DNA of 64,000 bases from Prescottella subtropica (GTDB lineage: Bacteria > Actinomycetota > Actinomycetes > Mycobacteriales > Mycobacteriaceae), in the NCBI RefSeq assembly GCF_005434945.1, contig NZ_SKCH01000009.1:62001-126000 (forward strand), given 5' to 3'. This document shows positions 26,184 to 30,010 of this stretch, piece by piece. Within the stretch, counting starts at the first letter, position 1; the number at the start of each line of letters is the position of its first letter. The notes under the pieces were generated by a model. It was given only the letters and a program-made list of their open reading frames with translations, ran no database searches and was not told the DNA's origin. Both the position numbers and the translations under genes were made by a program.

Positions 26184-27812
26184 ATGTCGGATGCCTTCGT
26201 CCCCGAGTTCCCCACCACCGCGGCCCCCACGATGGAGTGGGACGCCTGGGGTGTCGCCGAGTCCCGCCGCACCCTGTCCGAGCAGGTCACCACCCTGTTG
26301 CAGCAGGCGCTCGGGGTGTCCGCGGAGCAGTCGCCGCAGCCCGCCGAGGCCGACACGGTCCTGCGTCCGAGCGCGCTCGCACCGGCCCTCGCCGACACGC
26401 TCGCCGGCCTGCTCGGCACCGACCACGTCCGCACCGACGACGCCACCCGGCTGCGGCACGCCGGCGGCAAGAGCACCCCGGACCTGCTGCGCCGCAAAGC
26501 CGCCGACGCGCAGGACGCCCCCGACGCGGTCCTGCTGCCCGGCACCCACGACGAGGTCCTCGCACTGCTGCGGTTCTGCGCCGCCGAACAGCTCGCGGTG
26601 GTCCCCTTCGGCGGCGGCACGTCCGTCGTCGGCGGTGTCGACCCGGACCGTGGCCGCTTCGGGGCCGTCGTCGTCCTCGACCTGCGCCGGTTGAACGCGC
26701 TGGTCGACCTCGACACGGTGTCCGGTGTCGCGACACTGCAGGCCGGTACGACGGGGCCGCAGGCCGAGCAACTCCTCGGCGCGCACGGATTCTCCCTCGG
26801 ACACTTCCCGCAGAGCTTCCAGTTCGCGACCATCGGCGGTTTCGCGGCGACCCGCTCGTCGGGGCAGGCGTCCGCCGGGTACGGCCGTTTCGACGACATG
26901 GTCGAGTCGCTGCGGATCGCGACCCCGTCGGGCACCCTCGACCTCGGTCGCGGACCGGCATCCGCGGCGGGCCCGGACCTGCGGGAGTTGTTCGTCGGCT
27001 CCGAAGGCACGCTCGGCATCGTCACCGAGGTGACGGTGCGGGTGCATCCGGTTCCCGCCCGCACCGGCTACCGGGCGTGGTCGTTCCCCGACTTCGCGAC
27101 CGGCGCCGACGCCCTGCGGGCCGTCGCCCAGTCCGGGTCGGCGCCGACGGTGATGCGCCTGTCCGACGAGGCCGAGACCGGCATCAACCTGGCCCTCGCC
27201 GGCGACATCGGCGGCGACAGTCCCACGTCCGGCTGCCTGGCGATCACCACCGTCGAGGGCACCGACGCGCACGTCGAGTCCCGGTCCGCGGAGGTGAACG
27301 CGATCCTCGCCGCCGCCGGCGGCACCTCGCTCGGGGAGGGGCCCGCGCAGAAGTGGGAGCACGGCCGCTTCGATGCCCCCTACCTGCGCGACGCCCTGCT
27401 CGATGCGGGCGCGATCGCCGAAACCCTCGAAACCGCCACCCGCTGGTCGAATCTCGCGCACCTACGCACCGCCGTCACCGCCGCGTTGACGGAATCACTT
27501 GCCGCGCAGGGTACCCCGGCGCTGGTGATGTGCCACATCTCGCACACCTACCGGACCGGGGCGTCGCTGTACTTCACGGTCGTGTGCGCGCAGGCCGCCG
27601 ACCCGCTCACCCAGTGGGCGACGGCGAAGAAGGCTGCGGGCGACGCGATCGTCGCCGCGGGCGGCACCATCACCCACCACCACGCCGTCGGCCGCGACCA
27701 CCGGCCGTGGATGGGCGCCGAGATCGGCGACCTCGGCGCGAAGGTGCTCCGCGCGGTCAAGAACGAACTCGACCCCGCCGGGATCCTCAACCCCGGCAAG
27801 CTGATCCCTTGA
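26184..27812 (+). CDS. FAD-binding oxidase, alkyl-DHAP synthase-like (Rv2251-like)
   Basis: A 542-residue VAO/PCMH flavoprotein resembling alkyldihydroxyacetonephosphate synthases. FAD-binding blocks are VVPFGGGTSVVGGV and FATIGGFAATRSSGQASAGYG; ELFVGSEGTLGIVTEVTVRVHP is the end of the domain. The C-terminal FAD-oxidase domain ends KNELDPAGILNPGKLIP. ATG 26184 overlaps the tetR operator; ATG 26232 (MEWDAWG), which fits homologues, may be the true start. The third base of the last sense codon and the stop codon come from the inserted TnpB element. Before that insertion the stop probably overlapped the diacylglycerol kinase start. Substrate unknown; a role in ether or glycerolipid metabolism is inferred from the cluster. 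Confidence 0.85.
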   Translation: MSDAFVPEFPTTAAPTMEWDAWGVAESRRTLSEQVTTLLQQALGVSAEQSPQPAEADTVLRPSALAPALADTLAGLLGTDHVRTDDATRLRHAGGKSTPDLLRRKAADAQDAPDAVLLPGTHDEVLALLRFCAAEQLAVVPFGGGTSVVGGVDPDRGRFGAVVVLDLRRLNALVDLDTVSGVATLQAGTTGPQAEQLLGAHGFSLGHFPQSFQFATIGGFAATRSSGQASAGYGRFDDMVESLRIATPSGTLDLGRGPASAAGPDLRELFVGSEGTLGIVTEVTVRVHPVPARTGYRAWSFPDFATGADALRAVAQSGSAPTVMRLSDEAETGINLALAGDIGGDSPTSGCLAITTVEGTDAHVESRSAEVNAILAAAGGTSLGEGPAQKWEHGRFDAPYLRDALLDAGAIAETLETATRWSNLAHLRTAVTAALTESLAAQGTPALVMCHISHTYRTGASLYFTVVCAQAADPLTQWATAKKAAGDAIVAAGGTITHHHAVGRDHRPWMGAEIGDLGAKVLRAVKNELDPAGILNPGKLIP

Positions 27813-27960
27813 CTACTCCCCGCCCGGAAGGACGGGGATTCTCGGACTCACATCCGGGAGTTCCTGTTTCACCACGGATTGCCGATGGGCGAACCCATGC
27901 GGTCTGACATCCGCTCCGCAGGCGTTTCGTGTCTCCGCCAGCCCGGCGGCGACGAGGATG
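27793..27960 (-). ncRNA. Putative omegaRNA (reRNA) of the TnpB element
   Basis: TnpB elements make a guide RNA from the right end of the transposon, overlapping the 3' end of tnpB. On the minus strand the element ends with a hairpin (ATCCCCGTCC then GGGCGGGGAG) and TCAA at 27809, the typical scaffold end. The adjacent 16 or so host bases (27808 downwards, GGGATCAGCTTGCCGG) would be the guide. The 5' boundary is not visible, so 27960 is arbitrary. Confidence 0.5.
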
Positions 27961-29116
27961 TTCTGTGCGGCGTTGTGGTCCCGGTCGTGCCGGGTGCCGC
28001 AGTTCGGGCACGTCCACTGTCGTGTCCCGAGGGGCAATACGGCGAGCCGATGCCCGCACGCACTGCACGTCTTGGAGCTGGGGTGCCAGCGGTCGATCAC
28101 CACGAACCGGCGGCCGGCCCGCGCGGTCTTGTACTCGAGCATCGACCGGAACTCACCCCAGCCGGATTCGCTGATCGACTTCGCCAACGACCGGTTACGG
28201 ACCATCCCGGACACGTTCAGGTCCTCAACAGCGATCGTGTCGAACCGCTGCACCAGCGCCGTGCTGGTCTTGTGCAGGAAGTCGCGGCGAGCATCCCGCA
28301 CCCGGGAATGCTTGCGTGCGACCTTCCGGCGTTGCCTGTTCCGGTTGTTCGAGCCTTTCCGCATCCGCGCCAGGCGCCGCTGGTGCCGTCGCAGACCGCG
28401 TTCGTGGCGGGCCATGTGCTTCGGGTTGGCGATCTTCTCCCCGGTCGACAGCACTGCAAAGTCCTTGACGCCGAGATCCACACCGACCGACATGCCCGTC
28501 GCGGGAAGTGGTTCCGGGTCGGTGTGGTCGACGGCGAACGTCACGAACCAGCGGCCGTCCGGCTCGCAGGAGACGATCACCATCGTCGGGTCGAGCGTCG
28601 CGAGGTCGATGCCGGGCCAGGACCACGCGACCCGCAGCGGCGCGGTGGTCTTGGCGAGCCAGAATCCGCCAGCCTTGATGCGGAACGCGGAGCGCGTGTA
28701 ATGCGCGGACTGACGAGAACGCCGACTCTTGAACCGCGGGTACCGGGCCGTGCCCGTGAAGAACGACCCGAACGCGGTGTGCTGATGCCGCAGGGCCTGC
28801 TGCAACGGCACCGACGACACCTCCGACAGAAACGCGAGGTCGTCGGTCTTCTTCCACTGCGACAGCGCCGCATCGGTCTCCTTGTAGGACGTCGACTTCT
28901 GCTCTGTCGTGTACCGGTGTCGCCGGTCCGCGAGGGTCTTGTTCCACACGACCCGCACACACCCGAACGTGCGGCGCAGCAGCGCCGCCTGTTCGGGGTC
29001 CGGGTAGGCCCGGACCTTGTATGCGGTCCTCACCCCACCATCACAACAGAAGGGTCCGACATGTTCGACGCCATTCCTCCCCGCCGTGAACGACGGGGCA
29101 TCCTGGCGAGGGTTCG
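27809..29116 (-). mobile_element. IS200/IS605-superfamily element carrying only tnpB (IS1341-like)
   Basis: The element separates two genes adjacent in mycobacteria (Rv2251-Rv2252 order). Its ends are placed at 27809 and 29116: removing that span joins ATCCC to GTGACC, giving the oxidase a CCG Pro codon and a TGA that overlaps the kinase GTG start by 4 bp. Subterminal hairpins occur at both ends: CCCCGCC…GACGGGG at 27817-27837 and CCCCGCCGT/ACGACGGGG around 29079-29099. No terminal inverted repeats and no tnpA are present. The flank at the left end of the element (minus strand) is TCAC. Boundaries are inferred to within a few bases. Confidence 0.75.
27813..29033 (-). CDS. tnpB: TnpB RNA-guided endonuclease
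   Basis: A 406-residue TnpB of the OrfB/IS605 family, the ancestor type of Cas12. RuvC residues are intact: Asp186 (VGVDLGVKDFAV), Glu270 (IAVEDLNV) and the third Asp in HDRDHNAAQNI (350/352). A zinc ribbon between them has Cys323, Cys326, Cys342 and Cys345. The N-terminal helix-turn-helix part (MRTAYKVRAYPDPEQ…) is typical. GTG 29033 is the start. The last codons (PRIPVLPGGE) are also the 3' hairpin of the guide RNA. No partner transposase is nearby, so movement needs one in trans. The frame is uninterrupted. Confidence 0.93.
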   Translation of the reverse strand: MRTAYKVRAYPDPEQAALLRRTFGCVRVVWNKTLADRRHRYTTEQKSTSYKETDAALSQWKKTDDLAFLSEVSSVPLQQALRHQHTAFGSFFTGTARYPRFKSRRSRQSAHYTRSAFRIKAGGFWLAKTTAPLRVAWSWPGIDLATLDPTMVIVSCEPDGRWFVTFAVDHTDPEPLPATGMSVGVDLGVKDFAVLSTGEKIANPKHMARHERGLRRHQRRLARMRKGSNNRNRQRRKVARKHSRVRDARRDFLHKTSTALVQRFDTIAVEDLNVSGMVRNRSLAKSISESGWGEFRSMLEYKTARAGRRFVVIDRWHPSSKTCSACGHRLAVLPLGTRQWTCPNCGTRHDRDHNAAQNILVAAGLAETRNACGADVRPHGFAHRQSVVKQELPDVSPRIPVLPGGE

Positions 29117-30010
29117 GTGACCCGCTCCTCGGTCACGGTCCTGACCAATCCCGCCGCCGGCAGCGGGCACGCCCCCGCGGCCGCCGCCGCGGCGGTGGCC
29201 CGGCTGCGGGAACGGGGTGTCACGGTCACCGAGATCGCAGGCACCGACGCCGACGACGCCCTCGCCCTGGCCCGCCGGGCCGTCGCCGACGGCACCGACG
29301 TCCTCGTCGCCGCCGGAGGGGACGGCCTGGTCAACATCGCGTGGCAGGCGCTGGCCCAGACCGGGACACCCCTCGGGATCGTGCCCGGCGGCACCGGCAA
29401 CGACCACGCCCGGCTGTTCCACATTCCCGTCGACGACCCGGTCGCCGCCGCCGACATCGTCGCCGCCGGCGAGATCGCGACCGTCGACCTCGCCCGCGCC
29501 GGGGACCACTGGTTCGGCACCGTCCTGTCGAGCGGCTTCGACGCCCTCGTCACCGACCGCGCCAACCGGATGCGGTGGCCGCACGGCCCGATGCGCTACA
29601 ACCTCGCGATGATCGTCGAACTCGCGCAGCTGACCCCGATCCCCTACCGACTCGTCCTCGACGACCGGACCGTCGACCTCGACGCGACGATGGTGTCCGT
29701 CGGCAACGGCACCTCGTACGGCGGCGGCATGCTCATCACCCCGAACGCGAAACTCGACGACGGCCTCCTCGATGTCACCGTCGTCGCCGCCGGCAACCGG
29801 CTGAAACTGGTGCGCCTGTTCCCCACCGTCTACAAGGGCACCCACATCCGGCTCGACGAAGTGCAGACGTTCCGCACCCGCACCCTGCGGTTGGAGACCG
29901 GTGTACCGGTGACGTCGTACGCGGACGGCGAGTTCGTCGGACAACTCCCGATCGACATCGAGGCCGTGCCCGGTGCCGGACGCGTCGCCGTCGGGGCACC
30001 ACTCACCTGA
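29117..30010 (+). CDS. Diacylglycerol/lipid kinase (Rv2252-like)
   Basis: A 297-residue DAGK-catalytic-domain protein predicted to phosphorylate diacylglycerol or related lipids; the mycobacterial homologue Rv2252 takes part in phospholipid and PIM synthesis. Motifs: TVLTNPAAGSG (nucleotide loop), VAAGGDGLVNIAW, GIVPGGTGNDHARLF and, in the C-terminal lobe, SVGNGTSYGGGMLITPNAKLDDGLLDV. GTG 29117 is the first base after the TnpB element, so the native upstream context (overlap with the oxidase gene) has been lost and transcription now has to cross or start in the element. Confidence 0.9.
   Translation: MTRSSVTVLTNPAAGSGHAPAAAAAAVARLRERGVTVTEIAGTDADDALALARRAVADGTDVLVAAGGDGLVNIAWQALAQTGTPLGIVPGGTGNDHARLFHIPVDDPVAAADIVAAGEIATVDLARAGDHWFGTVLSSGFDALVTDRANRMRWPHGPMRYNLAMIVELAQLTPIPYRLVLDDRTVDLDATMVSVGNGTSYGGGMLITPNAKLDDGLLDVTVVAAGNRLKLVRLFPTVYKGTHIRLDEVQTFRTRTLRLETGVPVTSYADGEFVGQLPIDIEAVPGAGRVAVGAPLT

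Follow-up and report, generated by a model that had tools for sequence, protein, structure and literature searches.

How can a mobile element settle exactly where two genes overlap and leave both of them intact? The question is posed by a 1308-bp element in a 64,000-nucleotide stretch of the Prescottella subtropica genome (RefSeq assembly GCF_005434945.1, contig NZ_SKCH01000009.1, positions 62,001 to 126,000; this whole stretch is referred to below as the window). The element splits the stop/start overlap of a FAD-linked oxidase gene and a diacylglycerol kinase gene and breaks neither. Only tnpB lies inside it, with no transposase gene, and from its sequence we assign it to the TnpB-only (IS1341-type) members of the IS200/IS605 family, with IS608-like Y1 ends. 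TnpB-only elements, the ends of IS608, the nuclease activity of TnpB and a plasmid gene drive by TnpB are already in print (PMC9956272, PMC5934647, PMC8612924 and PMC11870625).

Our comparison of the element with its relatives, drawn throughout from Actinobacteria and their phages, points to operon-junction mimicry as the probable explanation: a Y1-type insertion at TCAY, with a stop codon and a Shine–Dalgarno (SD)-like end borne by the element and with TnpB aiding its retention. The integrity of both genes is, on our reading of the aligned ends, built into the element and recurs across the group, a point that goes beyond the first-pass annotation of the window.

Insertion at an older gene overlap

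All 13 other genomes of the genus gave a match to the joined flanks of the element, and on alignment each proved to lack it: the flanks are contiguous at the exact proposed base and read ...CC|ATGA, and the occupied site shows no target duplication relative to these empty sites. Since all 13 carry ATGA, the 4-bp overlap is older than the insertion. The first-pass annotation had placed the element at 27809-29116 and had stated that its removal rebuilds a 4-bp gene overlap. Both claims are upheld by the empty congeners, the first also by close relatives with the same ends and the second also by the deletion itself, which joins CTGATCCC to GTGACC; no empty genome showed a different junction and no copy ended at other bases. 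The empty-site sequence predicted in the same annotation was correct in its junction and wrong in its letters, as all 13 congeners have ATGA where the window has GTGA and one codon fewer inside the kinase gene. The preceding ATCCC is kept in 10 of the 13. Insertion changes the end of the oxidase gene from CCR TGA to CCT TGA.

The additional kinase codon of the window lies within 29117-29135, a few bases past the junction. Matches to a paralogous second oxidase in two genomes (L087 in G012 and L088 in G013) were left out of the empty-site count; they read CCGTGA, as compared with CCATGA in the other 13.

A target complementary to the start/stop overlap

Left ends were located with a rule that ignores SD letters (it requires T[CT]A[CT] and, after 14 nt, a GA-- guide with a hairpin; hereafter the SD-blind rule), which placed 50 copies. 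Their left flanks are TCAC in 40 cases, TCAT in seven, TTAC in two and TTAT in one, in agreement with the TCAC flank motif singled out in the first-pass annotation. On the opposite strand TCAY reads RTGA, which is the 4-bp overlap of a start and a stop codon. At the other end, TCAA after a hairpin terminates the relatives as well, and GAAT precedes that hairpin both in the window copy and in those closest to it; the earlier description of the right end as a hairpin followed by TCAA therefore stands. The right end as a whole is GAAT-hairpin-AGTAG-TCAA and the left end TCAC|N14|GATG-hairpin, and in the closest relatives both lie at the same bases.

This layout resembles that of IS608 from Helicobacter pylori, for which the published account gives CL TTAC, CR TCAA, GL AAAG and GR GAAT, with two guide bases pairing with the target T's (PMC5934647). 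The two share the arrangement of cleavage sites and guides, CR TCAA, GR GAAT and a tetranucleotide retained in the left flank, whereas IS608 combines TTAC with AAAG and a tnpA gene and the window group combines TCAY with GAWG or GAAA and has no tnpA. Subterminal hairpins with guide tetranucleotides, and insertion 3' of a fixed tetranucleotide, are present in the group, a pattern that the left-end search rule partly imposes. Of the 50 copies, 49 are consistent with IS608-type pairing (guide bases 1, 2 and 4 with site bases 2, 1 and 4, respectively). The same rule forces most of this agreement, and the information lies in the fourth base alone: a final G in the guide accompanies 39 of the 40 TCAC flanks, and a final A six of the eight TCAT or TTAT flanks.

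Stop codons supplied by the right end

The site set began with 199 loci, of which 175 had a right end, 23 had none and one was lost before that step. Removal of 41 duplicates left 134 sites, and dropping six that were distant or had a doubtful right end (L047, L053, L058, L059, L068 and L214) left 128 distinct insertions. A stop was scored as captured when an antisense coding open reading frame (ORF) of at least 100 codons ended exactly at the stop of the element. This is the case at 52 of the 128 insertions, compared with 69 of 2702 background TCAC sites (2.6%); an antisense-gene stop falls at such a motif by chance in about 2.0-2.7% of background cases. The idea arose from 54 hand-listed sites, the discovery count of 53 being that of an automated list with a shorter flank. 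Stops are captured at 19/53 sites in this discovery set and at 33/75 in a replication set fetched afterwards.

The target core TYA and the right-end TCA each give a stop codon on the opposite strand, and they share one register; a gene that runs toward the right end and had its own stop in the target thus keeps both its length and a stop. The antisense registers at the sites are distributed 52:6:3, compared with 109:849:248 in the background (all motifs). This distribution bears on an explanation by insertion preference, according to which translation starts and gene junctions expose more of the single-stranded target DNA, with a bias of insertion itself as the result. Y1 elements do enter single-stranded DNA at the lagging strand (PMC8612924); however, exposure alone would select no exact codon register, and we consider this account very unlikely.

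An independent gene caller found stop capture at 41 of the 128 sites, compared with 95 of 4639 in the background. It places 12 of the 52 stop sites in intergenic DNA, the phage site included, and adds one (L181).

Start codons and Shine–Dalgarno letters at the left end

Left ends could be placed at 108 of the 128 sites, 50 by the SD-blind rule, 32 by a pyrimidine-motif rule and 26 by eye; L215 was dropped. The pyrimidine motif resembles the complement of an SD sequence. SD counts in the 58 left ends outside the SD-blind set may be inflated, and the SD-blind 50 are therefore reported apart. The left end abuts the start codon of a coding ORF at 62 of the 108 sites, compared with 294 of 3758 background sites (7.8%), and stops are captured at 47/108, compared with 100/3758. 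Both a start and a stop are found at 34/108 (background 51/3758) and at least one of them at 75/108 (background 343/3758). The SD-blind 50 comprise 21 starts and 17 stops, with either at 27. The idea of start retention arose on these 50 copies (24 starts by a first test, 21 by the later one), and the other 58 sites gave 41. Six further sites that pass the start test are uncounted, as their in-frame coding signal runs past the right end. The downstream start codon is kept because TCAY is complementary to RTGA.

Downstream proteins at the 62 start sites fall into 55 clusters and upstream genes at the 52 stop sites into 46, which excludes one host gene inherited many times as the cause of the counts. 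Some of the downstream N-termini resemble RmlA, RmlB and Zur.

An SD sequence of at least 4 nt is present in 85 of the 108 left ends and one of at least 5 nt in 63; the latter all stand 4-6 nt before the start (42 of them at 5 nt). Among native RTGA starts of the same DNA, 89/294 have at least 4 nt and 45/294 at least 5 nt, and for letter-shuffled left ends the shares are about 15% and 3%, respectively. In the SD-blind 50 the corresponding counts are 38 and 28. Two SD types occur, GGAGG and, in several TCAT groups, AAGGAG, with similar spacing. A subgroup (L174, L187, L192 and L197) has left ends like TCAT|CGAAGTTGCGGCGTGG, in which an SD is absent though the flanks open with ATGAC and are start-codon-like.

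Empty and occupied sites at three further loci

Of 346 flank-bearing records, 60 made up a spread list, and eight empty Cheoctovirus phages were picked from it by hand, not at random. In all eight, the tape-measure gene ends ...CCGGGAGG|GTAA, with the ATG of the next gene directly after it. The occupied phage Job42 reads ...CCGGGAGG|TTGA, then the element, then GTAAATG, and its annotated tape-measure gene terminates on the four bases of the element. At a zur-like gene, the empty genome G902 reads ...CAGGGAGGCTGC|ATGAGCACG and the occupied genome G904 reads ...CCAAGGAGTTTCG|ATGAGCACG, of which the left part derives from the element; the empty reading implies that the native GGAGG remains with the upstream gene. 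Finally, the exact GTG of an rmlB-like gene is an empty site in five genomes (L270-L274), all of the same genus. These empty sites support the reading of the ends as mimics of a gene boundary.

Mimicry or survivorship

An alternative without adaptation is pure survivorship, in which the element would hit any TCAY and only harmless landings would persist. The stop would then be a by-product of the Y1 end code, and the left end would need its GGAGG-like letters for a transposition structure, not for translation. The stop register follows from the shared TYA cores, as in IS608; the GGAGG sits in a near-palindromic stretch (CCTCCGGAGG) of many left ends; and SD presence shows no significant difference between site types in the SD-blind set. 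Three observations argue otherwise. First, the excess of stops persists when gene-disrupting sites are set aside with the independent caller (41:62 compared with 95:1085, odds ratio 7.6, p=1.7e-16). Second, SD sequences are commoner and longer in the left ends than before native RTGA starts. Third, groups with unlike left ends carry different SD letters at similar spacing. On balance we find survivorship somewhat unlikely as the whole explanation.

Several results nevertheless weigh against operon-junction mimicry. Since the Y1 end code by itself yields the stop, no adaptation need be invoked for it. At 25 of the 128 sites, the called gene at the right-end side lies in another frame or orientation; a start and a stop are both lacking at 33 of the 108 located sites, and at 11 an in-frame coding signal runs across the junction. 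The left end in the window, GAGG followed by GTTCG and then GTG, is a weak member of the SD set, and 23 of the 108 left ends, phage copies included, have no SD. Within the SD-blind set, SD and start sites are not significantly associated (18/21 compared with 20/29, p=0.20); the association is significant over all 108 (56/62 compared with 29/46, p=8e-4), 58 of which were placed in ways that possibly favor SD. The SD shuffles and p-values also take no account of shared ancestry among the elements. No helper transposase was identified: Y1 genes are present in 16 of the 19 genomes searched, though not in that of the window, and the surroundings of 12, inspected by eye for an autonomous TnpA partner, showed no matching ends.

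TnpB and the target of its predicted guide

The TnpB of the window is full length and matches ISDra2 TnpB (chain 8bf8, E=6.9e-67). Its RuvC and zinc-finger motifs are intact. Near the right end, two scaffold helices covary in 12 chosen sequences (92.7% of cells paired and 20 double-changed cells, with at most 5 in slid controls), a structured guide-RNA scaffold as in the RNA-guided OMEGA TnpB nucleases. The predicted 20-nt guide matches the empty site at 20/20 positions in L072 (genome G011); the other 12 congeners each have 1-3 mismatches to it, and TCAT, not TCAC, adjoins the match in all 13. An empty target for the predicted guide is, by this match, present in relatives. The first-pass annotation had thus been right about the retained RuvC and zinc residues and about a guide next to TCAA; the check that it proposed for further copies with the same ends in this genome gave a single copy of the element. 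The second TnpB match (L002, contig C15) is partial, with 42% identity over residues 27-366.

These data bear on two further explanations. The first makes TnpB-driven retention the main cause and camouflage secondary, because guides drawn from conserved 3' ends of genes would meet empty alleles more often and copies at gene boundaries would spread and endure. The guide matches among the congeners, the published plasmid gene drive by TnpB (PMC11870625) and the occurrence of the element in 43 phage records all fit this idea, which leaves the left-end SD unexplained as well as the start-only sites, where the guides lie in non-coding or unrelated DNA. It rests on predicted TnpB activity and is compatible with operon-junction mimicry rather than opposed to it; as the main cause we judge it unlikely. 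The second casts TnpB as a domesticated regulator. TldR proteins are nuclease-dead TnpB regulators with mutated RuvC residues. A single copy in a genome in which we found no Y1 transposase (PF01797) would suit such a role; the intact RuvC and zinc motifs, a guide that matches the element's own insertion site and a site that is empty in all 13 congeners do not. We regard a TldR-like function as extremely improbable, and the intact RuvC motifs led us to discard it.

Distribution of relatives

Two of 14 genomes of the genus, that of the window included, carry the element (E<=1e-100); the other, G011, has a 96%-identical copy at a different site. In the genome of the window, a DNA search with the right-end scaffold gave no second convincing match. 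The G011 copy (L003) is not at a start codon and has lost the SD, reading GAGTATTCG compared with GAGGGTTCG in the window; at a distance of about 2.3 kb there is a Y1 match of 57 residues. Wider samples gave 12 of 401 genomes in the family (E<=1e-120) and 20 of 394 in the class, both counts including the genome of the window, and 57 of 341 in the family of genome G599 (E<=1e-135). A scan of genome contigs yielded 68 loci.

Of the 43 phage records, 42 are from Mycobacterium phages; in all 43, at least 80% of the element is covered, at 60-80% identity (78% in the listed rows). Five Cheoctovirus copies were read (L115-L119) and occupy three insertion sites, one of them at the tape-measure stop. 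Among plasmids, 46 records matched, six with a coverage of 80% or more, and one site was examined (Thermobispora, L120).

Features of the locus

Coordinates are collected in Table 1. Two Rfam results concern the same DNA. RF02743 (Sernc389, 'Saccharopolyspora sRNA 389', antisense) matches 28252-28846 on the plus strand, antisense to tnpB, with 176.8 bits, and the family may simply be antisense tnpB DNA. The right end (27795-27965, minus strand) gave only below-threshold matches, to HgcC and to sot0042, the latter named as a sense overlapping transcript.

Table 1. The element, its parts and the two flanking genes, in window coordinates
Feature	Coordinates	Strand	Basis
TnpB-only element, 1308 bp	27809..29116	-	empty in 13/13 other genomes of the genus at the exact limits; ends as in close relatives
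tnpB, 406 aa, predicted IS200/IS605-type RNA-guided endonuclease	27813..29033	-	Pfam and NCBIfam matches; ISDra2 TnpB structure sequences; RuvC and zinc motifs
Right-end terminal TCAA; on the gene strand TTGA, the oxidase stop	27809..27812	-	sequence; TCAA ends the right end of relatives
Right-end hairpin CCCCGTCCTTCCGGGCGGGG	27818..27837	-	sequence; covarying helix
Guide-like GAAT, minus-strand 5' of the right-end hairpin	27838-27841	-	sequence
Second scaffold stem of the predicted guide RNA	27841..27860	-	covariation across 12 chosen sequences
Predicted 20-nt guide GGGATCAGCTTGCCGGGGTT, inside the oxidase 3' end	27789..27808	-	adjoins TCAA; 20/20 match at the L072 empty site
TCAC flank, target / target-adjacent motif (TAM); read as GTGA on the gene strand (start codon of the kinase and the following A)	29117..29120	-	sequence; TCAC in 40/50 copies
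Left-end hairpin CCCCGTCGTTCACGGCGGGG	29079..29098	-	sequence; IS608-like layout in relatives
Guide-like GATG, minus-strand 5' of the left-end hairpin	29099-29102	-	sequence
SD-like GAGG in the left end, 5 nt 5' of the kinase GTG	29108..29111	+	sequence; recurrent in relatives
FAD-linked oxidase; last codon base and stop now element-derived	26184..27812	+	Pfam; sequence; empty relatives
Diacylglycerol kinase, start codon retained in the flank	29117..30010	+	Pfam and NCBIfam; empty relatives

Discussion

From the junctions, registers and counts observed here, we infer the following course of events. A Y1 TnpA, presumably acting in trans, would insert the element 3' of TCAY, on the strand opposite two overlapping genes. 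The right end supplies an in-frame stop (TTGA) to the upstream gene, and the left end an SD-like sequence before the start codon in the flank, from which translation of the downstream gene would presumably proceed. Such a mimic of an operon junction is expected to cost the host little, and insertions at gene boundaries would survive best because the element brings along its own stop and ribosome site. The flank, here the conserved 3' end of the upstream gene, would provide TnpB with its guide. So directed, TnpB would cleave alleles that lack the element and thereby invade them and punish loss, which, as judged from characterized TnpBs, would favor retention or homing. The guide-RNA transcript, if made, is predicted to end in GGGATCAGCTTGCCGG.

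A more general version of this proposal is that a Y1/TnpB lineage moved its target from TTAC to TCAY, so that target and TAM complement RTGA, the ends carry a stop and a ribosome-binding site, and TnpB drives the element through conserved boundaries; we see the chances that this holds as evenly balanced.

The element resembles the IS1341 group of IS200/IS605 elements in having a lone tnpB between hairpin-bearing left and right ends and no transposase gene (PMC9956272). It differs in its RTGA-complement target, its SD-like left end and its right-end stop at gene boundaries, features that do not appear in the portion of the published description consulted. With ISDra2 of Deinococcus radiodurans it shares a homologous TnpB, a guide from the right flank and a motif from the left flank (PMC8612924), whereas ISDra2 has a TTGAT motif and a partner TnpA. 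A further parallel is with the elements of Cheoctovirus (Mycobacterium) phages, which match almost its full length at about 78% nucleotide identity and have the same ends, and which capture the tape-measure stop at one of the three sites read; these are phage-borne, have a left end without SD and use TTTAC at the tape-measure site. A literature search by title and abstract opening found no report of stop or SD mimicry in such ends, and a prior mention is possible.

If the proposal is true, the ends of these elements can make insertions into operons nearly silent for translation, which would be a simple answer to how TnpB persists in gene-dense genomes. It would also predict where such elements are located and give a reason for the TAM of the group, and selection on transposon ends for host translation would become a testable question.

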